Assembly (NCBI GenBank): GCA_026397505.1
Contig: JAPLUR010000043.1
Coordinates: 1-40,368, forward strand
Direction of reading: 5' to 3'
Source: Candidatus Zixiibacteriota bacterium
GTDB lineage: Bacteria; Zixibacteria; MSB-5A5; GN15; PGXB01
DNA length: 40,368 bases
The notes beneath the pieces are model-generated. The model searched no databases, was not told the origin of the DNA, and was given only the letters and a program-made list of their open reading frames with translations. This document shows positions 1,746 through 20,098 of the stretch, piece by piece (positions within the stretch are counted from its first letter, which is position 1; each line of letters opens with the position of its first letter). The position numbers and the translations under genes were made by a program.

Positions 1746-3755
1746 TCAGTCGCTGAAATCCCAGGTGAAGCCGTAAGAGTTGAATCGACCTTCGATGGTG
1801 TAATTCTCCCGCGATGCATATTCTATCGAGGGGATATCCTGAAAAATATAATAGAACCGAAATCTCTTGATCTGGAAGGAAAGCTTCAGATTGACCACCG
1901 GCTTTTCACCCAGCCTGGTTCCATTGAAGCCGTAATATGGCCCGGAATAAACAGCCTCGATGTAGCTGTATAGATTTATATCCAGAGGCCGCAAGTAATA
2001 GTAGAGCTCCAGGCATGAAAAACCCTGATAATCGGGCGAGTACGGCGGCGTGGAGTTTTTATCGACTTCTACATATCGATAAGAGGCTCCTCCCGACCAG
2101 AAAACATTCTTGCCCAACGTTATCCTCTGGACCGCGGAAATATTCCCAAAAACTATATCTTCATTCCCGGTCCTGAAAGAATTGAGGACAAAACCGCCCG
2201 AATCAAGCCGGCTTCTCTGCCAGTCGATACCATCGAATATCTTCCCGCCGGCAAGTGACAGAGTGAAGTCGGAATTGACCTTTCCCAGGCTCAATGTAAG
2301 ATTACCGCAAAGCTGTTTCTCCGGATTAAGAGAAAAATTTCCCAATTCGAAATAATCGAGGCTGTCCGAATCAACGATCCTATCCATTCGCGGCGTAAGG
2401 TCGAGCTCATACTGGCGGGGAAATTTGGTGCTGTAACCCACTGAAATCGCAAAATATCGATCCGGAAGATTTCTGGCATAAATCAGCGCGCCGGTCGGGG
2501 TGATATTGAAACCACCCACCCTTTCCAATTTCATGTATGAAAGAAAGGTCCGACTGCTGTCACCGGCCAGAAATTTCATATCAAACAGCCCGCGGTGACG
2601 TTTATTATGAATCGCACCGTCATAGTACCGCTCCTGCGATATGGCGATTCCCGTTTTAATCCCCAACCCAGCAACTCTGATATCATGGGAAAGGGCCAGC
2701 CGGTTATCGAAAACATCCAGATTGCGTTTATATTGCCCCCCGATGCGATCCTCATTTGATTCCGAACGCTGATGACGAAATTCGATACTGCTTTTCTCTC
2801 CGGCTGAATGGGATATCTCCAACCCGGCCGACAGATCGCGGTCACGACGAAATCTGTTCAGCCCCATTCCCCCGGCATAAGGACGGATAACATATCCCCC
2901 TGACCGGCGATACAGCCGACCCGTCAGATTCAAACGGATATTTTTCTTTAATGGATAGATCAATTCTCCCCACTGGTGATAGGCATCATCACTGGCGTAC
3001 GAAATATCATCCGCCGCTTTACGATACTCGAGGGACGCTTTTAGCGATCGTCCCTTTTTCAGATACTGACTGATAACCGCTCTGGTGTTGGCGTAACCAA
3101 AGGCGCCCTTTTCCACGATCAGACGCGACTCCGGCGGTCCGGAATCGGCCCGGGGAGGAACCATAATCAACGATGAAAGTGCATTATCCCCGCCGAAAGC
3201 CAGTCCCAACGGGCCTTCAAACGCATAGATCTCATTTCCCGGAGCGGAGGGAATATCATTAAAGTCGATTTGATTGTCCGGTTCCGGCAGGTGCTCCAGA
3301 GGCTTCAGCGCCCGGGAGCCCAGTATAGCATTTATCCTGTTTCCCGGAAGACCGAATGGCGAAACGGTCTTACGTAAAGGAGTCTGCCGGTCTTCAATAA
3401 TGAAGTGGGCGGGACTGCTCCGAAAAAAATCTCCGGCATCATGCTTAAAAGATCGTTCCGTCTGCTGTCGGAGATTAAAACGCCCAATCAGAAAGCGGGC
3501 CGCCAGGCTGTCATCGAGACCATAGAAACGCTTCTCATAATCGGCGGTATCGATAGATTCCGCAGAAAGCAAAGTATCCCCGATATTCGCCGAATCCACG
3601 GCGGGAGCCGCATGATTCAAGCTATCACTCTGGACACCCTCAGGAAAATCCCCTTCCTGTGCGGCGGCCGAGGGCAGAAGCAGCGCCGTGATAACCAGGC
3701 ATCCTGCGAGTATCCTAAGAAGCTCTGTCATAAGCAGACTTTTTCTCTTTCTCAT
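1746..3755 (-). CDS. Outer-membrane beta-barrel protein, TonB-dependent-receptor-like
   Basis: Predicted outer-membrane protein of about 669 residues. From the chosen ATG the N-terminus is a Sec signal peptide: basic RKRK, a long hydrophobic run, then PSAAA before QEGD. After a spacer of about 150 residues, the segment with ALGSRALKPLEHLPEP and IYAFEGPLGLAFGG resembles a reduced TonB receptor plug. The rest is dense in alternating polar and aromatic strands with short turns, typical of a large barrel, ending GFTWDFSD. No TonB box can be named. The start is uncertain: ATG 3755 gives the best signal peptide, ATG 3731 is an alternative, and neither has a clear ribosome binding site. It overlaps the end of the ECF S-component gene and is the last gene of the long operon. 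The pairing suggests uptake of a vitamin or cofactor across both membranes (inference). Confidence 0.6.
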   Translation of the reverse strand: MRKRKSLLMTELLRILAGCLVITALLLPSAAAQEGDFPEGVQSDSLNHAAPAVDSANIGDTLLSAESIDTADYEKRFYGLDDSLAARFLIGRFNLRQQTERSFKHDAGDFFRSSPAHFIIEDRQTPLRKTVSPFGLPGNRINAILGSRALKPLEHLPEPDNQIDFNDIPSAPGNEIYAFEGPLGLAFGGDNALSSLIMVPPRADSGPPESRLIVEKGAFGYANTRAVISQYLKKGRSLKASLEYRKAADDISYASDDAYHQWGELIYPLKKNIRLNLTGRLYRRSGGYVIRPYAGGMGLNRFRRDRDLSAGLEISHSAGEKSSIEFRHQRSESNEDRIGGQYKRNLDVFDNRLALSHDIRVAGLGIKTGIAISQERYYDGAIHNKRHRGLFDMKFLAGDSSRTFLSYMKLERVGGFNITPTGALIYARNLPDRYFAISVGYSTKFPRQYELDLTPRMDRIVDSDSLDYFELGNFSLNPEKQLCGNLTLSLGKVNSDFTLSLAGGKIFDGIDWQRSRLDSGGFVLNSFRTGNEDIVFGNISAVQRITLGKNVFWSGGASYRYVEVDKNSTPPYSPDYQGFSCLELYYYLRPLDINLYSYIEAVYSGPYYGFNGTRLGEKPVVNLKLSFQIKRFRFYYIFQDIPSIEYASRENYTIEGRFNSYGFTWDFSD

Positions 3756-4257
3756 ACAAAAAGACCAGCGCCGGATAAAACAACGGGAATATAATACAAT
3801 TCGAAACAATGGTTATCAATGAAAATACCAATCCTCCGATCAAACGGGGCCAGAATGGCTGATACAGCCAGGCATCGACAATATCGACCACAACATGGTA
3901 AAGCAAACCGGTCAACAGTCCCGAGAAAATCATGATCGCCCCGATTTTGGCATTCATTTTTTGAGGACGGAATAATTTTGCGGCCACGGCACCTATCAAT
4001 GCCGAGAAAGATATCCCCAGCAGTTGGGAAATCAGAAGCGGGATTGGCGCCGGCCCGAGCGGATTGAAATTGGACCAGAGAAAAAATCCGACGATTCCGA
4101 CACCGACTCCGGCACCGGGGCCCCAGAGAAAGCCGGATATAAAAACGATGAAAAAAGCCGGATTGATATTATAGAGGAAAACCGAAGCATAGGAAAAAAT
4201 AAAAACCAGAGCCGCAAAAACTGCGACTCTGGTTATCACTTTCATATGTCCGCTCAT
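3715..4257 (-). CDS. ECF-transporter S-component-like membrane protein
   Basis: Integral membrane protein of 180 residues with about five or six hydrophobic segments and almost no soluble part. The pattern resembles substrate-binding S components of energy-coupling factor transporters: a short basic N-terminus, ISGFLWGPGAGVGVGIVG near residue 40, NPLGPAPIPLLISQLLG near 66, and a Lys-rich C-terminus. S components bind a vitamin or metal and work with a shared EcfA/EcfT module, which is not encoded here. The start codon overlaps the stop of the metalloprotease gene (ATGA), so the two are translationally coupled. Its end overlaps the barrel gene. The substrate cannot be read from the sequence. 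Another small integral membrane family is possible. Confidence 0.55.
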   Translation of the reverse strand: MSGHMKVITRVAVFAALVFIFSYASVFLYNINPAFFIVFISGFLWGPGAGVGVGIVGFFLWSNFNPLGPAPIPLLISQLLGISFSALIGAVAAKLFRPQKMNAKIGAIMIFSGLLTGLLYHVVVDIVDAWLYQPFWPRLIGGLVFSLITIVSNCIIFPLFYPALVFLYEKEKKSAYDRAS

Positions 4258-6137
4258 TTTATAATGGCCAGTTTATACTTTCTTGTAACTTCGGGCGTAC
4301 CATCGGAGAAATGGAGACGGCAGAAAGCAAGATAGACTCCTGGAGCTACTTTTTCACCCCTCCCGTTGTCGAGCTTCCATTCTGCCAGAAGGTATTCATA
4401 TCCTTCATTTGCGGTCAGTTCCTTCACTTTTTCTCCAGCGATATCAAAGATAGTAATATTGAAGATAGCTTGCTGAGTCGGCAGAACCGGCCGCTGCACG
4501 CGAAAAGTAATAAAATCTTCCGAAGAATTCACTTTCATCGGGTTGGGGAATGGGGGTAGAAGTTGATATTTCGATGTATCGGCGGCGGCGCTGTCGAATA
4601 TTATATAGGTGTAATGCTTTGAACCCGGATAAGCATCCTGATGAATTGAAGTGACTGTCGGAATAACATACATTCTATTCCAATTGCCATAGACCGAACT
4701 CGGTATGGTATCGAAGAGTCCGCCGGCGACCTGAGCACGTTTCTGGACAACCGCCACCTGCCCGGGATTAATCGGAAAGCCGACAAAGGAAAGATTCCAG
4801 TATTTATCCGCAGAGTTATCGCCGGCAAAACGGAAAACCATTGTATCAGGAATCAGAGATATGGCCCTTAATTCAAGGTAATTAGACGCAACATTCTGGG
4901 GGACGTGCGCTTGCCAGGTCGAATCAGCGCGCGGCGAACCATATATCATCGTGTCCGGATAATGATCGCGAATAAAGAAGGCCGAATCCGGTATCACCGG
5001 ATAATTGGAAGCCTCCGAGTATTTATATCCGGCCGGCGCCCGCGAAGCGCGGGAACCGGTAAAAAGGTTCCAGATGGAAAATTCCTGCATGGCATCCCGC
5101 AAACGATAGCTGTTGCCTGATATGTCGTAAATGGCATCGTCCGCCGCCCGCAGAAACTGCGGCCCGACACCGTAATCGCGGCACTTCTGCCAGATATTTT
5201 TGACTATTACCGTGTCCCACTTTTCGGTCAGAAATATGGGAAAAACGGCCGCACCATACGGGTGCAACTGCAACGGATAAGACATTGTGAAATCCTGCAA
5301 CGACACCCAGGGATAATCGAAAAAGACGGGGAGATAATCATAGTAGTCATTAATTCCGTCATAGGCCATCTCTTCCATCCAGGTGGCAGACATCTCCCAC
5401 CAATAGAGTCGCGGTTCCAGAGTGGTGCCATCATACTCGGTATAATCCATACCGAAATGAACGGCGTGAAAATATTCATGGGCCACGGTAACCCGCACGG
5501 CATCGAGAGGGCGATTGCTGTACGGGAAAAAATTATAATCATTGTCTATTTCCATAAAAGAGGTCGCCCGCTGATTATCGACCCCCTCGTCTCCCTGAGT
5601 CTGTCCATAGTACTTGGTGCCGAGATCCCTGATATAGATATCGTAGAGCGAATCGCCGCCTGAGGGATACCCATTATCTTTCGGGGGCGCCGGGTAGCCG
5701 AGATGGGTTATCTCAAACCACCAAACGGAATCGGCAATATCGGCCACTTTATTTATGAAATCGGGGACCCCGTCTCCCCCGCCGATCGTATCAATGCCGG
5801 GCTGGTAGACATTGGTGTGGTCATAGTGAATCAGAAAATGAGAGGCCGGTGACGCCAGGGAATCGGGTAATATCGGCCGAGCGACGGCCTGTGCCGCGGC
5901 AATCTTATTCTGCCCGGTAAAATTCTCGCGATTGATGAAGAGCTGAAAGCCGATTGTCGTGCCGCAATGAGGCAGAGCGCCGACGCTGTCCATCGAAGCG
6001 GGATGAGGCCCAACACCGCGCACGAAATTCAATTGATCGATCAAATCCTGCTGATATTGCTCCGAAAGAGCGGCCCCATATGATGCTCCCGTGAGCAGAA
6101 GCAGAAAAACTACCAAAAGGAATATTCTCTTTTCCAA
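4254..6137 (-). CDS. Secreted zinc metalloprotease with C-terminal sorting domain
   Basis: Exported protein of 627 residues. Residues 1-22 form a signal peptide (EKR, then a Leu-rich run ending GASYGAA). The catalytic domain carries an HExxH zinc motif, VAHEYFHAVHFG, with H220, E221 and H224. About 30 residues later ATWMEEMAYD (251-260) offers the third ligand or glutamate expected of gluzincin-like enzymes. It resembles the MXAN_6640-type putative metalloproteases. The last 100 residues form an immunoglobulin-like domain of the FlgD/T9SS type: FPNPMK, then an I-F-D-I-A-G-E-K-V strand, W-K-L-D-N-G-R-G, and APGVYLAF. Such domains direct secretion or surface anchoring in FCB-group bacteria. The start is TTG, supported by AGAGG six bases upstream. 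It lies 2 bp after the PHP gene and overlaps the ECF gene. The substrate is unknown. Confidence 0.75.
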   Translation of the reverse strand: MEKRIFLLVVFLLLLTGASYGAALSEQYQQDLIDQLNFVRGVGPHPASMDSVGALPHCGTTIGFQLFINRENFTGQNKIAAAQAVARPILPDSLASPASHFLIHYDHTNVYQPGIDTIGGGDGVPDFINKVADIADSVWWFEITHLGYPAPPKDNGYPSGGDSLYDIYIRDLGTKYYGQTQGDEGVDNQRATSFMEIDNDYNFFPYSNRPLDAVRVTVAHEYFHAVHFGMDYTEYDGTTLEPRLYWWEMSATWMEEMAYDGINDYYDYLPVFFDYPWVSLQDFTMSYPLQLHPYGAAVFPIFLTEKWDTVIVKNIWQKCRDYGVGPQFLRAADDAIYDISGNSYRLRDAMQEFSIWNLFTGSRASRAPAGYKYSEASNYPVIPDSAFFIRDHYPDTMIYGSPRADSTWQAHVPQNVASNYLELRAISLIPDTMVFRFAGDNSADKYWNLSFVGFPINPGQVAVVQKRAQVAGGLFDTIPSSVYGNWNRMYVIPTVTSIHQDAYPGSKHYTYIIFDSAAADTSKYQLLPPFPNPMKVNSSEDFITFRVQRPVLPTQQAIFNITIFDIAGEKVKELTANEGYEYLLAEWKLDNGRGEKVAPGVYLAFCRLHFSDGTPEVTRKYKLAIIK

Positions 6138-6139
6138 AT

Positions 6140-6973
6140 TTAACCTCTATTAATTAAAGCAAGCTTTGTTTTCAACGCCTCAAGTAATGCCACCGGGACA
6201 TCCTGATAGCCGATCGCACCCTGAGTCCCCTCGCGACCATGATAATCCGAGCCGCCGACAGCCAGAAGGCCCTTCGACTCGGCCATCTTCATATATGTCT
6301 TGCACTGGCTCCGGTTATGCTGGGGATGGTACACTTCGATACCATCAAGACCCAGCGTCAGAAGTTCATCGATATGGCGGGCAGCATTGTTGACACCCGG
6401 ATGGGCCAGAAATGCCAGACCGCCCGATCTGTGAATCAAATCAATCGCTTCACCGGGTGCCAGGTTTTGCTTGGCCACATATGCCGGCCCTTTATTCCCG
6501 ATAAATTTCAGAAAAGCCGATTCATAACTCCTGACCGCGCCGATCTTCAGCATGGCATCGGCAATATGCGGGCGACCGATTGCAGATCGTCCGGCAAATT
6601 CCATCACCGTCTCATAGGGAATATCGATCCTCATTTCTTTCAGCTTGGCCAGCATCTTTTTCCCCCGGTGGTCCCTTCTCAGTCGGAACTCCTCAAGGGC
6701 ATTTTTCAGTACATCGGATTCGGGGTCAAAACCGTAACCCAGTATATGAAGATCCTCATTATCTCCTCCGGCCGATAATTCCACGCCGGCAATTAGCTCG
6801 GGATCGCCGTCCGTCAGGAGCTTCCGCATCTCGAAAAAGCCGCTCAGATTATCATGGTCACAAATGGCAAACGCCTCAAGCTTTTCCTGACGAACCATTT
6901 CGAGCACTTCTTTGGGTGAGGCCAGCCCGTCGGAAAAAAAAGTATGAATATGAAGGTCAATCCGGTTGGGCAT
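6140..6973 (-). CDS. PHP-domain phosphoesterase (RNase AM/TrpH-like)
   Basis: Metal-dependent phosphoesterase of the PHP superfamily, 277 residues, cytoplasmic. Visible metal-binding motifs are DLHIHTFFSDG (6-16), CDHDNLSG (38-45), GVELSA (63-68), LAHPG near 200 and GGSDYHG near 245, the same order as in E. coli YciV/RNase AM. Members hydrolyse 3',5'-nucleotide bisphosphates or trim short RNA 5' ends, which is a plausible role here. The ATG follows the stop codon of the formiminotransferase gene directly (TAGATG), so translation is coupled. The gene lies in the middle of the eleven-gene operon. The exact substrate cannot be told from sequence. Confidence 0.85.
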   Translation of the reverse strand: MPNRIDLHIHTFFSDGLASPKEVLEMVRQEKLEAFAICDHDNLSGFFEMRKLLTDGDPELIAGVELSAGGDNEDLHILGYGFDPESDVLKNALEEFRLRRDHRGKKMLAKLKEMRIDIPYETVMEFAGRSAIGRPHIADAMLKIGAVRSYESAFLKFIGNKGPAYVAKQNLAPGEAIDLIHRSGGLAFLAHPGVNNAARHIDELLTLGLDGIEVYHPQHNRSQCKTYMKMAESKGLLAVGGSDYHGREGTQGAIGYQDVPVALLEALKTKLALINRG

Positions 6974-13167: not shown

Positions 13168-14679
13168 CTACTCGCCAAAAATCACGGCTTGGAATCGATA
13201 AACAACGGCGTCAGGTGATTTGTAGGCCTGCCGGTCAAGTCCGGCCTTAACACAAGTCTGTTCCAAAAATTCGGTTACGCTCCAACCATATTCAACGGCT
13301 ACCTGGGGAAGAAGCAAACCGCGCTGGGTTCCTATGAAGATCATCAATCCGTCCCGGCCGACTTTTATCTCATTGAAGGAGCCGATTTTTTCCATCGGAG
13401 TCAGCACCGAAATCTCAATATGCAGCCGATCTATCTCGTCGGCCCTGACCGGCGGGAAACGCGGATCCGAAACCGCCGCCTGCACCGCACAGATCGAGAC
13501 TGTCTTATAAAGCGGCTCGGTGGCCGTGGTATGGCCGATACAGCCCCGAAGCATTCCATTCTCCTCAAGCGTTACAAAAGCGGCCCCGAACTTCTGAAGA
13601 TTTTCCGGCACCTCAAATTCCGGGATTTTGTTGTCTTTGATATAACTCGTCAGAGATTCCCGGGCAATCTGCAGAAGTCTTTTCTTGCCCGGTTCATCGA
13701 GATTGAATTTGGCCGCCAGCTCTTTATCATTGGATGTAGTCATAGAATTTTTCACCGGTTTTTTATCTTTGATGTCCGACTCTTTATACAAAACCGCCGC
13801 GACATATCCCACCACGCTGCTCTTATCGCCGGTAACATCTCCTGAATCGCGATATTTCAGGATTTTGACCCGGTTGGCTCCTTTTGCCACAGCCGCCTTT
13901 ATCACGGCGACAGCAGCTCCCCCGCCGCAAAGCTCAGTTTTCCCATTACGCAGATACTGCAGTAACCGGTCCGCATCAAGATTCAGCAGGCAATCCATTC
14001 CCAGCGAGTCCATCTTGCCGCCGGCCGAGGCCGGACGGTAATGCTGCCAGTCGGTCGAGGCAATCATTATCGTGCGGGCATCCGAAGGCATAAGTTCCAG
14101 GGCGTCGGTCATCAGCTTGACCGCATTATCATCGGGATTGCCCATTATCAGCGGAACTATTTTAAAATCCTTGAGAACCGTTTGAAGATACGGCAACTGC
14201 ACCTCGAGGCAATGCTCACGAGAATACGCCGCCGCTATAGTATCAATCCCCCGGTCGTGTTTCAGAAGCACATTGCAGAGCGAATCGTCACAGGAGACGT
14301 TTCCCAATGGCGTTTTCCATACTACCCCCGGGCCGTAGACCGAAATCCCCTGAAATCCATATTGATGGCTCGGGCCGCATAAAATCACGCGGTTGATGGG
14401 GGAGTTTTCCAGCAGCTTATAAGCATAAGCCGCAACGTAGCCGGAATAGACAAGCCCCGCATGAGGAACAATCATGGCGATAATTTGACCGTCAATGGCC
14501 GGGATATCCTTGGCTGCGTTCAAGTGACCCGAAACCATAGCTTTTAATTCCGTCGGGTCCGATGGGTAGAATTTCCCCGCCACAGCCGGCTCCCTGATCG
14601 CCCCGTAGGATACGGCCGGACTGAGATTTATGAAGAGGGTCAGGATACTGATAAAAAACAGAAATTTTTTCATACTCAT
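13168..14679 (-). CDS. MEMO-AMMECR1 fusion with signal peptide (AmmeMemoRadiSam proteins B and A)
   Basis: Fusion protein of about 503 residues. Residues 3-26 form a Sec signal peptide (MKK, hydrophobic run, AVSYG). Residues about 28-300 are a MEMO domain: EPAVAGKFYPSDP, IVPHAGLVYSGY, CGPSHQYGF, EHCLEVQLPYLQ, STDWQHY and LCGGGAAV. The putative metal ligands H73, H105 and C251 correspond to the human MEMO1 ligands and are kept. Residues about 325-503 are an AMMECR1 domain with the hallmark LRGCIG (378-383) and DPRFPP (405-410). MEMO and AMMECR1 with a radical SAM enzyme form the AmmeMemoRadiSam set, whose reaction is unknown. The radical SAM partner is encoded divergently next door. The ATGs at 14679 and 14673 are alternative starts, neither with a strong ribosome binding site; the longer open frame adds a non-conserved tail that destroys the signal peptide. 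Confidence 0.88.
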   Translation of the reverse strand: MSMKKFLFFISILTLFINLSPAVSYGAIREPAVAGKFYPSDPTELKAMVSGHLNAAKDIPAIDGQIIAMIVPHAGLVYSGYVAAYAYKLLENSPINRVILCGPSHQYGFQGISVYGPGVVWKTPLGNVSCDDSLCNVLLKHDRGIDTIAAAYSREHCLEVQLPYLQTVLKDFKIVPLIMGNPDDNAVKLMTDALELMPSDARTIMIASTDWQHYRPASAGGKMDSLGMDCLLNLDADRLLQYLRNGKTELCGGGAAVAVIKAAVAKGANRVKILKYRDSGDVTGDKSSVVGYVAAVLYKESDIKDKKPVKNSMTTSNDKELAAKFNLDEPGKKRLLQIARESLTSYIKDNKIPEFEVPENLQKFGAAFVTLEENGMLRGCIGHTTATEPLYKTVSICAVQAAVSDPRFPPVRADEIDRLHIEISVLTPMEKIGSFNEIKVGRDGLMIFIGTQRGLLLPQVAVEYGWSVTEFLEQTCVKAGLDRQAYKSPDAVVYRFQAVIFGE

Positions 14680-14729
14680 TTTCAATTTCAGAATACTATT
14701 CTTTATACACCCGGTCAAGGAAAAAAGTG

Positions 14730-14758
14730 TTGACAGTTTTGACCTAATTGATTGTATA
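14730..14758 (+). promoter_or_regulatory. Promoter of the DUF362-radical SAM unit
   Basis: TTGACA (14730-14735) is followed after 17 bp by TGTATA (14753-14758). A transcript would start about at the ATG at 14767, so it may be leaderless. No ribosome binding site is visible before that ATG. A TATGAT at 14766-14771 is another -10 candidate but has no well-spaced -35. Confidence 0.4.
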
Positions 14759-14766
14759 TGCTTTGT

Positions 14767-15687
14767 ATGATTAGAGTTGTGATTGCAAAGGCTTCGGGCG
14801 GCGATTCCGGCAGGCATCTCAGCAAAGATGAATATCGGGGGCTTCTGGAGTCCGGGTTCAAAGCGCTGGCCGGTCTGAACGATATAAAATCATCGGTATC
14901 CAAATTCCTGCCGGGCGGGACAATCGGTCTCAAAGTCAGCTGCCTGGCCAGAAAATTCAACTCCACGCCGGTGCCGCTGGCCGATGCTCTCGTGGAACTA
15001 TTGATCCAGACCGGCATCTCGGAAAATAAAATTATCATCTGGGAGCGCACCAATCAGGAACTGGAATCGGCCGGATATGCTCTCAACACCTCGGCCGCCG
15101 GACGAAAGTGCCTGGGAACCGATACCGACGGCTATGGATACAGCCGCGATTTTTATAGCTCCGGGCCGGTCAATTCACTGGTCAGCCGGATATTGACCGA
15201 AACTGTCGATCACAATATCAATCTCCCCGTTCTTAAAGATCATTCCATCGCCGGTCTGTCTTCCGGAATGAAAAATATGTATGGAGCCATCAACAACCCC
15301 AATAAATATCATGACACCAATTGCGACCCCTTTGTCGCCCATGTTTCCAACTTAGAACCGCTGAAGGCCAAAAACCGCCTCAGCATTATCGATGCCGTCC
15401 GGGTGCAGTATAACGGCGGACCGGGGTTCGACAGCCGCTACCTGGCCCGCTATAACGGCCTTATTCTCTCCGACAATCCGGTTGCCGCCGACCGGGTGGC
15501 TCTGGAAATTCTGGAGCATTGCCGTCAGCAGAACGCCCTCCCTTCTCTGGAAAAAGCCGGACGACCGGCCAAATTTCTCAAAACCGCCGAGTCGATCGGT
15601 TTGGGTACAGCCGACCTGAGTAAAATTGATTTGAAAGTTATAGTAAAGGATGCCGGCGGCGGCGAACGACCGGGAGAAATGTTCTGA
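14767..15687 (+). CDS. DUF362 family protein
   Basis: Protein of about 306 residues with no signal peptide or added ferredoxin domain. The DUF362 hallmark is seen at about 158-190: LPVLKDHSIAGLSSGMKNMY followed by GAINNPNKYH. The N-terminal part reads IRVVIAKASGGDSGR and then TIGLKVSCLA, as in family members. DUF362 proteins are often fused to or encoded with iron-sulfur or radical SAM proteins; their activity is not established. The chosen start ATG 14767 gives the best N-terminus; TTG 14752 and ATG 14758 are in frame. The stop codon overlaps the start of the radical SAM gene (TGATG), so the two are translationally coupled and probably act together. Confidence 0.8.
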   Translation: MIRVVIAKASGGDSGRHLSKDEYRGLLESGFKALAGLNDIKSSVSKFLPGGTIGLKVSCLARKFNSTPVPLADALVELLIQTGISENKIIIWERTNQELESAGYALNTSAAGRKCLGTDTDGYGYSRDFYSSGPVNSLVSRILTETVDHNINLPVLKDHSIAGLSSGMKNMYGAINNPNKYHDTNCDPFVAHVSNLEPLKAKNRLSIIDAVRVQYNGGPGFDSRYLARYNGLILSDNPVAADRVALEILEHCRQQNALPSLEKAGRPAKFLKTAESIGLGTADLSKIDLKVIVKDAGGGERPGEMF

Positions 15688-16826
15688 TGGAACGAAGATT
15701 CTTCCTGCGCTGCCTCGGATGCAGTTTTCTGGCGTCCGCCATGCTTCAAAGCGATTTTTTCCCGGAAATTCTGGGCGGATTGAAAAGTGCCGAAGCATAC
15801 AGCCTCACCAAGAATCTCTCTTCGGTCGAGGCTCGTTACTACAAGAAATTGCCCGAAGGAGGCGTCGAATGCGGCATCTGCCCGCGCCATTGCCGGGTGA
15901 CCGACCTGGAGCGGGGATACTGCGGCACTCGGGAAAATCGCGCCAACGTGTACCATACCCTTGTTTACGGCCTCGCCTGTTCGATGAATATCGACCCCAT
16001 CGAAAAAAAACCGCTGTTTCACTTCTATCCCGGCACGACCGCCTTCTCACTGGCCACCGCGGGATGCAATGTCAACTGCAAATTTTGCCAGAATTGGGAT
16101 ATATCGCAATCGCGTCCGGAGCAGACCGATAATGTCGACCTGCCGCCAAAAGAGGTAATAGCTATCTGTCGGAATCAGAATCTGCCCACCATCGCCTATA
16201 CTTATTCCGAGCCAACCATCTTTTATGAATATATGTATGATATCGCCGAACTGGGACGCAGTAATTCTATCCGTTCGGTTATGATCAGCAACGGATATAT
16301 GGAAACAGAACCCCTCAAAAATCTTCTTCCCGTCCTCAATGCGGTCAAGGTTGACCTGAAATCAATTCGGGAGGATTACTACAAGAATATCGTTGGCGGC
16401 GAACTAAAACCGGTTCTGGATAGAATTATCCAGATAAAGAAATCGGGCACCTGGCTGGAACTGGTTTATCTGATTGTACCTACTTTGAATGACACACCCG
16501 AGGAGTTTCGGGAATTGGCCGGCTGGGTAAAAACTAATCTGGGAACCGACACCCCGCTTCATTTCTCCCGTTTCTATCCCCAGTATCTGCTGAAAAATCT
16601 CCCGCCGACACCGCAGAAAACGCTGGAAACCGCTTATCAAATCTGCCGCGAAACCGGATTGGAATATGTTTATCTCGGCAACCTCCCCGGCCATCCGGCC
16701 GAATCGACCTACTGTCCCCAGTGCGGCAAGATTCTGATAGAGCGAAAAGGTTACAGGATATATCAAAATAATATTAAGGGGAACCGGTGCTATAATTGCC
16801 AGAGGAACATACCGGGACTATTCTAA
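15687..16826 (+). CDS. amrS: AmmeMemoRadiSam system radical SAM enzyme, Tat-signal form
   Basis: Radical S-adenosylmethionine protein of 379 residues. The 4Fe-4S motif CxxxCxxC is TAGCNVNCKFCQNWD (C127, C131, C134). Before it lies ECGICPRHCRVTDLERGYCG (61-80), the four-cysteine region typical of this PflA-related subfamily. The C-terminus has zinc-ribbon-like cysteine pairs, YCPQCGKIL and NRCYNCQRNIPGLF. The N-terminus RRFFLRCLG followed by a hydrophobic run matches the twin-arginine motif RRxFLK, so the folded iron-sulfur protein may be exported by Tat (inference). This agrees with the signal peptide on the MEMO-AMMECR1 fusion encoded divergently. GGGAG lies 10 bases before the start. The next gene starts on the base after the stop codon. 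Confidence 0.9.
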   Translation: MERRFFLRCLGCSFLASAMLQSDFFPEILGGLKSAEAYSLTKNLSSVEARYYKKLPEGGVECGICPRHCRVTDLERGYCGTRENRANVYHTLVYGLACSMNIDPIEKKPLFHFYPGTTAFSLATAGCNVNCKFCQNWDISQSRPEQTDNVDLPPKEVIAICRNQNLPTIAYTYSEPTIFYEYMYDIAELGRSNSIRSVMISNGYMETEPLKNLLPVLNAVKVDLKSIREDYYKNIVGGELKPVLDRIIQIKKSGTWLELVYLIVPTLNDTPEEFRELAGWVKTNLGTDTPLHFSRFYPQYLLKNLPPTPQKTLETAYQICRETGLEYVYLGNLPGHPAESTYCPQCGKILIERKGYRIYQNNIKGNRCYNCQRNIPGLF

Positions 16827-18953
16827 ATGAATCGTAAGGCATTTTTACTTGGATTCTATTCGATCGGGGGACAGGTACTGCTTCTGCGGGAACTGGTCTC
16901 ATCGTTGCACGGTGATGAATTATTCCTCGGCACCGCCCTCTTCGGCTGGTTACTCTCGGTTGCATCGGGGGCCTATCTGGCGGGGAAATCGCGCCTATCG
17001 GTCAAAACCGGTGTCCTCTTTGTCGCCGGCGCCATAGCCCTGCCGGTGATGCTTGTTATCGTGCGTCTTTCGACCCTCATGACCGGTCATCTCATCGGCG
17101 AGATAACTCCCTTCAGCACCGCTGCGGCTATTTCCATTTTTTTCATGTCTCCGGTCGGCCTTATTTCCGGCGCCTTGTTTTCGGCTATTACCAGAGAGGG
17201 GTACCGCCCGGCGCTTTCCATAGTACAGGTCTATCTCTGGGAGGGGATCGGTGCTTTTGTCGGCGGCGGACTCTTCACGCTCTTGGTCGGCTCATACCTT
17301 TCAACTCTGGCCATGGCTCTGGTCTTGAGCTTGGTGGTTATCCTCATCCTCTTTTCTGATCTTTCGCATAAAAGGACGGTCATGCCGGTCATTGTCGCCA
17401 TGGCCCTTGTAGCCCTGATAAAATCCTATACTCCTTATCTGGATCGATATATTGATAATTTCAAATACCGACCATACCAGGTCGAGTCATCGCTTGATAC
17501 CCATTATGGACATCAGGTAATACTCTCGAAAGACAGTACACTGACATTGGTGACCGATAACAGTATCGAAGCCGCCTATCCGGATCTGCTGACAGCGGAG
17601 AATCTCCTTCTGCCGCCATTGGCTTACCGCCCCGATATAAAGAATATTCTCCATATCGGTCGCATTGAATTCGGTATCATGCAACTGGCCGATAGCCTCC
17701 CGGAAATCAAAATCACCGCCATAGACGCCCGCGGGTCGCTGACTGATGCTGTGGAAAAAATAATGTCAAAGGCCGGGCAATCTGTCCAGATCAATGATGA
17801 CCCACTGGCCTACTTCACTCTGGCCTCGCCTCTAATCAAGTATGACCTGATAATCATGAACATCGGCGAGCCGGATAGTTATCGAAGCAGCCGCTATCTT
17901 ACGGCGCGGTTTCTTAATGCTGCCCGGCGATTCCTTGCCCCCGGAGGTATTATTTTCTTCCCCTCGCACTATGATACCGATCGGAATATTTCGCAGGAGA
18001 AGGGAAAACTTCTTTCCATTATTTATAATACTCTTAAATCCTCATTCACTCACGTTGCCTCCTGGCCGGGCGATTTGACCCTGTTTTTTGCTTCGGACAG
18101 CGCCCTCTTTGAGGTTCCGGTCGATACCATTCTTCAGCGCTTCAGCGCTCTTGGCTATGCCCCGCGATTCCTGAATCAGGATTATCTCCCCGATCGTTTT
18201 GAATCGCTCAAAGTATCGCGGCTCCATGATGCCCTTAATTCTTCATCGCAAGTAAATTCTCAAGAAAAACCGGTGCTGGTTTACAATCAGGCGATATATC
18301 GTTCCAAAATCGACAACCTTGATAAGACTATCATTCCTGCCCTTTACCGGCAGCCATGGACACTTGCTGTCCCGTTAATGATAATCGTCTTCTTCCTGAC
18401 TCTGATTTTCCGAAAGCGCCGCCGGAGGGAATTCGGGCTCTTTTTGTACTTTGCGGCCGGACTTGCATCGCTTTCGCTGGAATTGATCTCCTTCTATGTT
18501 TTTCAGTCCTCCGCCGGTTCTTTATACTCTCAGATAGGGGCGCTGATTGGCGCCTTCATGCTCGGTCTGGCTCTGGGGACTTATTTCTCGGTCCGGGCCA
18601 ATAAAGAACACCTGGAGTTCCCCGCCCTGATTCTCTTCATTGCCGCGGTATTATTCTTTTCTTCCACTTACCGGAGTGTTCCGCCGCGGGCGCTATTATT
18701 ATATCATCTTCTCTTTCTCTTTACGGTGGCTGTGATCACCGGCTCTCTCTTCGTTGCCGCCACGGCCCGTTATTATTTTGGACGTTCCGAAAGCAATCGG
18801 GGCACCGGCTATGCCCTGGAATTGGTCGGCTCCGCTCTCGGCGCCCTTCTTCCCATAACCATTTTTCTCCCCTTTCTGGGAATACCGTGGCTTCTGGCCG
18901 CCATCCTGATTTTTTTGGCCCTCTCTCTGGTCGGTGCCACTATCACCAGATGA
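16827..18953 (+). CDS. Polytopic membrane protein with degenerate spermidine-synthase-like domain
   Basis: Protein of 708 residues. About six hydrophobic segments fill residues 1-200, a soluble segment of about 300 residues follows, and about seven hydrophobic segments end the protein. This is the layout of fused MFS/spermidine-synthase proteins. The soluble part has the Rossmann order of the synthase: ILHIGRIEFGIMQLAD, then ITAIDARGSLTDAVEKIM, YDLIIMNIGEPDSYRSSRYL, and FLNAARRFLAPGGIIFFPSH. The canonical glycine motif G-G-G-D-G is replaced by GRIEFG, and the Asp expected after the product-binding strand is MNIGEP. Catalysis is therefore doubtful, and a binding or transport role is possible. 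The start ATG directly follows the stop of the radical SAM gene, so it belongs to the same unit. The synthase-like reading rests on motif order. Confidence 0.7.
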   Translation: MNRKAFLLGFYSIGGQVLLLRELVSSLHGDELFLGTALFGWLLSVASGAYLAGKSRLSVKTGVLFVAGAIALPVMLVIVRLSTLMTGHLIGEITPFSTAAAISIFFMSPVGLISGALFSAITREGYRPALSIVQVYLWEGIGAFVGGGLFTLLVGSYLSTLAMALVLSLVVILILFSDLSHKRTVMPVIVAMALVALIKSYTPYLDRYIDNFKYRPYQVESSLDTHYGHQVILSKDSTLTLVTDNSIEAAYPDLLTAENLLLPPLAYRPDIKNILHIGRIEFGIMQLADSLPEIKITAIDARGSLTDAVEKIMSKAGQSVQINDDPLAYFTLASPLIKYDLIIMNIGEPDSYRSSRYLTARFLNAARRFLAPGGIIFFPSHYDTDRNISQEKGKLLSIIYNTLKSSFTHVASWPGDLTLFFASDSALFEVPVDTILQRFSALGYAPRFLNQDYLPDRFESLKVSRLHDALNSSSQVNSQEKPVLVYNQAIYRSKIDNLDKTIIPALYRQPWTLAVPLMIIVFFLTLIFRKRRRREFGLFLYFAAGLASLSLELISFYVFQSSAGSLYSQIGALIGAFMLGLALGTYFSVRANKEHLEFPALILFIAAVLFFSSTYRSVPPRALLLYHLLFLFTVAVITGSLFVAATARYYFGRSESNRGTGYALELVGSALGALLPITIFLPFLGIPWLLAAILIFLALSLVGATITR

Positions 18954-18994: not shown

Positions 18995-20098
18995 ATGCCT
19001 CAATTCATAAACGATATCAGCACCCCGGCGATTGTGATTGAACGCGCGATTCTCGAAAGAAATCTGGCCGACATGCAATCTCTGGCAACAAGAAATAACA
19101 TAAATCTTCGAGTCCATATTAAGACTCATAAAATACCGGAACTGGCCCAGACGCAGTTAAAACAGGGCGCTGTCGGGATTGCGGTGGCCAAGCTGGGGGA
19201 AGCCGAAATCATGGCCGGGGCCGGCATCAAAGATATTCAGATCGCCAATATCATCGTCGGCAAAGATAAGATCCGAAGATTGGTTAAACTTAATCGGATA
19301 TGCCGCCTATCGGTCGCCATTGATTCGATTGAAAATGCCCGGGAGATTTCCGCCGCTTTTATGCGCGAACGAAATCCAATCGGTGTTCTGATCAAAGTCA
19401 ATTCCGGTTTAAACAGATGTGGTTCTGATTCATTGGAAGAAATCACTCGATTGCTTAAAGCGGCCGAAAGACTTAAGGGTCTAAATGTTCTCGGTCTGAT
19501 GACTCATGCCGGGCACGCCTATGGTGCCGGTAATCGAAAAGAGGTGCAAGCGATCGGCCGTTCCGAAGGAAAACTCCTGGTGGATTATGCGCGGAAACTC
19601 CAGACAGACGGATATGAAATGAAAGTACTGAGCGTCGGATCGACTCCGACCGCACGTTATTGCTTGAAAGTAAAGGGAATCACCGAGCTTCGTGTCGGAA
19701 ATTACATTTTTAATGACATGACACAGGTTTCCCTTGGTACAGTGCCTGTCAGCCGCTGCGCCCTGACTGTCCTGACCACCGTTATCAGTGTGCATGAGGG
19801 GAATCGGGTTGTCATCGATGCTGGAAGCAAAGCCCTGGCCCTCGATAAGGGCGCTCATGGCCGCGAAATCCTGAAAGGATACGGCCTTATCGTAAGCACC
19901 GGCGATCATATTTCCCGATTATCCGAGGAACATGGCATTATCGATACTCCCGCGCGAAGGTACAAGCTGGGGCAGAAAATTAGAATCATCCCCAACCACG
20001 CCTGTGCGGTCATGAATCTCTTTGATGAGGCTTATCTGGTCGACGGCAAGAAAGCAATCAGAAAATTCAAAATCGCCGCCAGAGGAAAAATGAATTAA
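18995..20098 (+). CDS. D-threonine aldolase/D-serine dehydratase-like PLP enzyme
   Basis: Fold-type III pyridoxal-phosphate protein of 367 residues, cytoplasmic. The N-terminal TPAIVIERAILERNL and RVHIKTHKIPELAQ (39-52) match the alanine-racemase-like barrel, with K43 the likely PLP lysine. Later motifs are NSGLNRCG (134-141), LMTHAGHAYG (165-174) and LSVGSTPTA (206-214). The C-terminal metal site typical of D-threonine aldolase and D-serine dehydratase is IIPNHACAVMNLFD, with H335 and C337. It probably cleaves or dehydrates a D-3-hydroxyamino acid; the exact substrate is not decided by sequence. No ribosome binding site precedes the ATG. The gene is 41 bp after the membrane protein gene and 11 bp before the thiamine pyrophosphokinase gene. 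Confidence 0.85.
   Translation: MPQFINDISTPAIVIERAILERNLADMQSLATRNNINLRVHIKTHKIPELAQTQLKQGAVGIAVAKLGEAEIMAGAGIKDIQIANIIVGKDKIRRLVKLNRICRLSVAIDSIENAREISAAFMRERNPIGVLIKVNSGLNRCGSDSLEEITRLLKAAERLKGLNVLGLMTHAGHAYGAGNRKEVQAIGRSEGKLLVDYARKLQTDGYEMKVLSVGSTPTARYCLKVKGITELRVGNYIFNDMTQVSLGTVPVSRCALTVLTTVISVHEGNRVVIDAGSKALALDKGAHGREILKGYGLIVSTGDHISRLSEEHGIIDTPARRYKLGQKIRIIPNHACAVMNLFDEAYLVDGKKAIRKFKIAARGKMN

Follow-up and report, generated by a model that had tools for sequence, protein, structure and literature searches.

Can a radical S-adenosylmethionine (SAM) enzyme work on the outer side of the cytoplasmic membrane? The cytoplasm, which holds both SAM and low-potential electrons, is for that reason taken to be where such enzymes work, and in the literature searched we found no paper describing an extracytoplasmic one. 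The question is raised by positions 13168-18953 of a contig from a Candidatus Zixiibacteriota bacterium (JAPLUR010000043.1; 40,368 nucleotides, hereafter the window), which encode an AmmeMemoRadiSam triad, that is, the radical SAM enzyme AmrS and a single protein combining MEMO and AMMECR1, along with a DUF362 protein (DUF362 no. 1) and a polytopic membrane protein. The initial annotation of this segment proposed that the triad is exported. Our sequence analysis strongly supports export, which we regard as very likely, and suggests a second, compartment-shifted AmmeMemoRadiSam system that probably acts on the outer face of the cytoplasmic membrane.

The window AmrS begins with MERRFFLRCLGC...GGLKSAEA/YSLT, in which MERRFFLRCLGCSFLASAML stands ahead of a cleavage-like site at SAEA/YSLT. 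Ahead of the catalytic core, every one of the 80 long-class homologues (those sharing about 50% identity or more with the window AmrS) has RRx[FLIVMY], a stretch of weak hydrophobicity and an x-A site, and this conservation excludes a chance origin of the signal. Outside the long class, 39 of 41 AmrS proteins from the same or related genomes begin directly at the core, without a signal. With TatC, of the twin-arginine translocation (Tat) pathway, encoded in the window's genome, AmrS combines the sequence features of a Tat substrate: a conserved twin arginine, a weak hydrophobic stretch (mean best 12-residue hydropathy 1.48), an A-x-A site and a translocon in the genome. MEMO fusions beside long-class AmrS have a hydrophobic, Sec-type signal in 40/40 cases measured (median best 10-residue hydropathy 2.8; in L104, the single low value, the hydrophobic stretch lies further upstream), whereas for second-copy fusions the median is 0.35, with the maximum (L130) falling upstream of the start codon. 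The fused domains with a Sec signal and the Tat motif on the radical SAM partner, both read from a single sequence in the initial annotation, are thereby confirmed across homologues. A wrong AmrS start codon was considered and rejected, as the start overlaps the DUF362 stop and the amino acids from the twin arginine to the core are conserved across phyla; a lipoprotein signal at CLGC was also rejected, as CLGC precedes most of the hydrophobic stretch. A MEMO-AMMECR1 protein from KSB1 (L110, about 3809-5426) has a lipobox-like start (LLSASVLIGC) and may be a lipoprotein.

Signal-less homologues, which the initial annotation had named as grounds for doubting export, do exist but form a separate paralogous group, and all sampled members of the exported clade keep the signal. 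In a tree built from catalytic-core columns only, with the signal region left out, signal-bearing AmrS proteins from several phyla formed one clade (100/99 support), corresponding to one change. Support was 98/90 when the two signal-bearing exceptions outside the long class were included. These two AmrS proteins (L207, G078:C39, and L209, G087:C67), whose N-termini have a twin arginine, branch as sister to the main exported clade, just beyond it, and might represent an older or distinct exported lineage. A further AmrS (MIIEASYYEKL...) and a further MEMO-AMMECR1 fusion (MKNDIEIRRPAVAG...) are encoded on a second and a third contig of the window's genome, respectively, and neither has a signal. 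The organism therefore has two complete triads, apparently one per membrane side. Among 119 genomes from the phylum of the genome carrying locus L107, between about one fifth and one quarter also have a long-class AmrS.

The catalytic residues are intact in the exported copies. The window AmrS scored 350.4 bits against TIGR04337 (NCBI curated cut-off 220), and the fusion scored 249.8 bits against TIGR04336 (cut-off 26) and 177.9 bits against TIGR04335 (cut-off 99). No variation was seen at 11 cysteines, those of the radical SAM CxxxCxxC among them, across 80 exported and 39 cytoplasmic AmrS proteins, and both clades also share residues in the TYSEP and VDLK motifs. Aligned to human MEMO1 (PDB 7KQ8), the MEMO domain has identical residues at H49, H81 and C244, the iron ligands of the human protein (PMC11081632), and the AMMECR1 domain matches PDB 1VAJ (E 2.7e-36) and retains LRGCIG. 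No biochemical activity is reported for any member of the triad in the literature searched, which on its function yielded only the binding of metal by MEMO1 and a single remark in an analysis of review type.

The initial annotation objected that reducing power is normally cytoplasmic, and a NapH-NapG fusion provides a concrete candidate answer. Many exported-AmrS cassettes adjoin such a fusion, together with an exported DUF6599 protein and a second, Tat-type DUF362 protein (DUF362 no. 2); the three lie side by side on another contig of the window's genome (L166: DUF362 no. 2 at 3383-4336, NapH-NapG at 4337-6025 and DUF6599 at 6030-6929). The NapH-NapG fusion of this genome has a twin arginine at about residues 332-333, directly before the last transmembrane (TM) helix, and four [4Fe-4S] motifs after it, at 380-524. 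In a sample of 60 genomes (36 with exported AmrS and 24 without), the fusion was found in 35/36 versus 3/24 (p=5e-12, in a test that ignores shared descent), the membrane protein in 34/36 versus 1/24, and DUF362 no. 1 in 34/36 versus 0/24. Within one family, the fusion was present in 17/17 versus 1/17 genomes (p 1.5e-8, likewise ignoring shared descent). The misses examined were in fragmentary genomes or at contig ends, and the NapH-NapG association holds even where the genes are unlinked. The fusion matches a "polyferredoxin" whose insertion was shown to require both Sec and Tat; placement of clusters in the periplasm was shown for this family, with four [4Fe-4S] clusters predicted outside (Tooke et al. 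2017, PMC5449189). In one acidobacterial genome (L069, 2738-4909), DUF6599 is fused to the C-terminus of the NapH-NapG fusion, linking these parts, while in Aminicenantes loci (e.g., L073, 9344-12182) HdrC/HdrB-like and 2-oxoacid:ferredoxin oxidoreductase genes follow the cassette instead, on the same strand. An exosortase and EpsI pair (L166, 962-1804 and 1801-2436) lies just upstream of the DUF362 no. 2, NapH-NapG and DUF6599 block.

The membrane protein is predicted to have 14 TM helices, with a spermidine-synthase-like domain between TM7 and TM8 (AlphaFold2, predicted local distance difference test score (pLDDT) 90.3) that matches 1UIR (profile E 2.7e-31; Foldseek TMt 0.70). This domain should lie outside, because lysine and arginine are in excess in the loops predicted inside (18.4, versus 2.9 outside), in the same direction in 33/33 sequences and in each half separately. 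The SAM motif is degenerate in Zixibacteria (IGRxEFG) and retained in Aminicenantes and Acidobacteriota, and the catalytic Asp of spermidine synthase is Asn in most members. An active spermidine synthase was rejected on the loss of this Asp and of the SAM motif, and the sequences make spermidine production unlikely. Against PRK00811 and PRK03612 the window member scored 18.3 and 16.5 bits, well short of either cut-off; its distant relatives match NCBIfam models better.

DUF362 no. 1 matches PF04015 at 59 bits, and its AlphaFold2 model (pLDDT 95) matched LarA-type nickel-pincer enzymes in Foldseek (E 1e-6, but TMq only 0.49). His160 and Lys170 are invariant, and their 10-residue spacing equals that of LarA His174/Lys184. 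We know of no racemase function for DUF362, and the modelled likeness to LarA is a lead rather than a function. The two families share one Pfam clan (PMC11770544). DUF362 no. 1 has a Tat signal in Acidobacteriota and Calditrichota, where every soluble part is therefore export-marked, and lacks a signal in Zixibacteria and Aminicenantes. For Zixibacteria a missed upstream signal was rejected, several genes having an in-frame stop directly before the start.

Open reading frame (ORF) and profile analysis of the window bore out all gene positions given by the initial annotation (Table 1), as well as the divergent arrangement around a gap then put at about 90 bp. This gap spans 78-96 bp, set by the choice of DUF362 start (alternatives at 14752 or 14770), and the fusion likely starts at ATG 14673 (MKKFLFFISILTLFINLSPAVSYGA/IREP) rather than at 14817, as in the longest ORF. 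The genes for DUF362 no. 1, AmrS and the membrane protein are a tightly packed operon, divergent from the fusion gene: the DUF362 stop and AmrS start overlap by one base (TGATG, 15685-15689), and the end of AmrS abuts the start of the membrane protein gene. In the divergent gap, promoter-like matches did not exceed chance: the only one was weak and on the minus strand. Genomes of candidate division Zixibacteria are the closest relatives of the window. Beyond the cassette comes a gene (18995-20098) for an alanine-racemase-fold protein resembling aldolases or dehydratases, with 174 bits to BhcC, below cut-off.

Table 1 Features of the probably exported AmmeMemoRadiSam cassette, in window coordinates.
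Feature	Position	Strand	Evidence
MEMO-AMMECR1 fusion gene	13168-14673	-	PF01875 MEMO + PF01871 AMMECR1
AMMECR1 domain (TIGR04335, PF01871), C-terminal part of fusion, LRGCIG kept	13168-13767	-	TIGR04335 177.9 bits; PDB 1VAJ
MEMO domain (TIGR04336, PF01875), mature N-terminal part of fusion	13768-14598	-	TIGR04336 249.8 bits; MEMO1 7KQ8 match
Sec-type signal peptide of fusion, ~residues 1-25	14599-14673	-	Sequence; hydrophobic signal in 40/40 neighbours of Tat-type AmrS
Divergent intergenic region	14674-14763	.	78-96 bp
DUF362 no. 1 gene (putative LarA-like fold), no signal in Zixibacteria	14764-15687	+	PF04015 59 bits; AlphaFold2; Foldseek
AmrS gene	15687-16826	+	TIGR04337 radical SAM enzyme
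Twin-arginine signal peptide of AmrS, predicted cleavage SAEA/YSLT	15687-15797	+	80/80 homologues; TatC in genome
AmrS radical SAM core (TIGR04337), CxxxCxxC and two further four-Cys sets	15798-16826	+	350 bits; 11 Cys 100% conserved
Polytopic membrane protein gene	16827-18953	+	
Membrane protein, first seven TM helices	16827-17465	+	AlphaFold2 pLDDT 90.3; positive-inside analysis
Spermidine-synthase-like domain, predicted extracytoplasmic, degenerate SAM motif	17466-18353	+	Profile; Foldseek; K+R counts
Membrane protein, last seven TM helices; RKRRRR loop after TM8 predicted inside	18354-18953	+	AlphaFold2; positive-inside analysis

In the arrangement that we favor, AmrS would fold with its iron-sulfur clusters in the cytoplasm and exit via Tat, while the MEMO-AMMECR1 fusion would exit via Sec and take up its metal outside. 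DUF362 no. 1 would use its own Tat signal in Acidobacteriota and Calditrichota and is probably carried out on AmrS in Zixibacteria and Aminicenantes. The NapH-NapG fusion, with [4Fe-4S] clusters on either face of the membrane, could pass electrons to AmrS, a relay that the Tat-exported DUF362 no. 2 and the DUF6599 protein would accompany. The 14-TM protein would present its SAM-enzyme-like domain outside, where it may serve to dock the complex, or else to handle SAM or SAM products. The sequences themselves show the signals, their single origin, the paralogy, the intact catalytic residues, the predicted topology and the co-occurrence; we infer that the proteins are translocated, that electrons flow, that SAM is supplied and that an extracytoplasmic target undergoes radical modification. 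Radical SAM turnover outside the membrane appears plausible, at close to an even chance, and we suggest more tentatively, as a possibility somewhat short of even, that a complete radical SAM system, with its own transmembrane iron-sulfur relay and SAM delivered across the membrane, modifies an extracytoplasmic target.

Several observations weigh against external activity. The potential of a quinol dehydrogenase is too high for SAM cleavage unless it is energised, and to our knowledge there is no SAM source outside the membrane. The degenerate SAM motif of the outer domain in Zixibacteria, the missing DUF362 no. 1 signal in Zixibacteria and Aminicenantes, and the finding of no adjacent MEMO at most Aminicenantes loci point the same way. 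The co-occurrence p-values overstate the evidence, and co-occurrence is no proof of contact. NapGH-type complexes are moreover described as quinol dehydrogenases (PMC5449189).

The N-terminal segment of AmrS could be an uncleaved anchor that holds the catalytic domain on the cytoplasmic face, with MEMO-AMMECR1 alone exported, an option left open by the initial annotation; some Tat-like segments do stay uncleaved, SAM and ferredoxin are cytoplasmic, and DUF362 no. 1 has no signal in the window's genome. We consider this very unlikely, however: the twin arginine before the hydrophobic stretch and the few positive charges right after it predict an N-in/C-out orientation even if uncleaved, an x-A site is present in 80/80 AmrS proteins (A-x-A in the window), the partner fusion has an export signal, the DUF362 partner has its own Tat signal in two groups, and the stretch, weakly hydrophobic beside the MEMO signals (1.48 versus 2.8), resembles Tat signals rather than anchors.

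AmrS might instead carry out its radical chemistry while still in the cytoplasm, either on a partner or to load a product, and then leave together with it. Tat transports folded, cofactor-loaded complexes, SAM is present inside, DUF362 no. 1 overlaps AmrS and is signal-less in Zixibacteria, and Aminicenantes cassettes adjoin HdrCB-like and 2-oxoacid:ferredoxin oxidoreductase genes, all consistent with such a sequence of events. Yet a separate cytoplasmic triad is already present, and the co-occurring membrane electron relay has predicted periplasmic clusters, which leaves this explanation rather unlikely. The same relay, and the want of a known outside SAM source, would also suit an exported AmrS recruited as a periplasmic iron-sulfur electron carrier or scaffold that had lost radical SAM chemistry, but CxxxCxxC, TYSEP and VDLK are still invariant, as in the cytoplasmic clade, and MEMO and AMMECR1 also keep their active-site motifs, so we judge this explanation unlikely.

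That radical SAM enzymes are cytoplasmic becomes a directly testable assumption, given a conserved exported clade whose catalytic residues are intact and which comes with exported partners and a co-inherited transmembrane [4Fe-4S] relay. The clade also lets the AmmeMemoRadiSam triad, which includes a relative of human MEMO1, be compared between two compartments in nature and supplies a short partner list.

Compared with AmmeMemoRadiSam as defined by TIGR04335, TIGR04336 and TIGR04337, the window copy has three parts above the NCBI cut-offs and intact catalytic residues; it differs in the export signals on AmrS and the fusion, in its fixed partners, DUF362 and a spermidine-synthase-like membrane protein, and in sharing its genome with a signal-less second triad. 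Human MEMO1 (PDB 7KQ8, PMC11081632) has the same His, His and Cys metal ligands as the window MEMO, but it is a stand-alone protein with neither an AMMECR1 fusion nor an export signal. The MLMS-1 polyferredoxin, a NapH-NapG fusion (PMC5449189), resembles L166:4337-6025 in its NapH-like membrane part, internal twin arginine and four [4Fe-4S] motifs; it was discussed in relation to NapGH, whereas the fusion described here tracks the exported AmmeMemoRadiSam clade. DUF362 no. 1 resembles the LarA clan (CL0471) in its PF04015 match, tentative LarA-type fold match and His/Lys spacing, although the TM-score is only about 0.5. Fused MFS/spermidine synthases (NF037959, PRK03612) share membrane helices and a spermidine-synthase fold with the window membrane protein, as profile and fold matches indicate, but the window-type protein has seven TM helices on each side of a domain predicted to lie outside, Asn stands in for the catalytic Asp in most members, Zixibacteria have a degenerate SAM motif, and the window member falls below all cut-offs.

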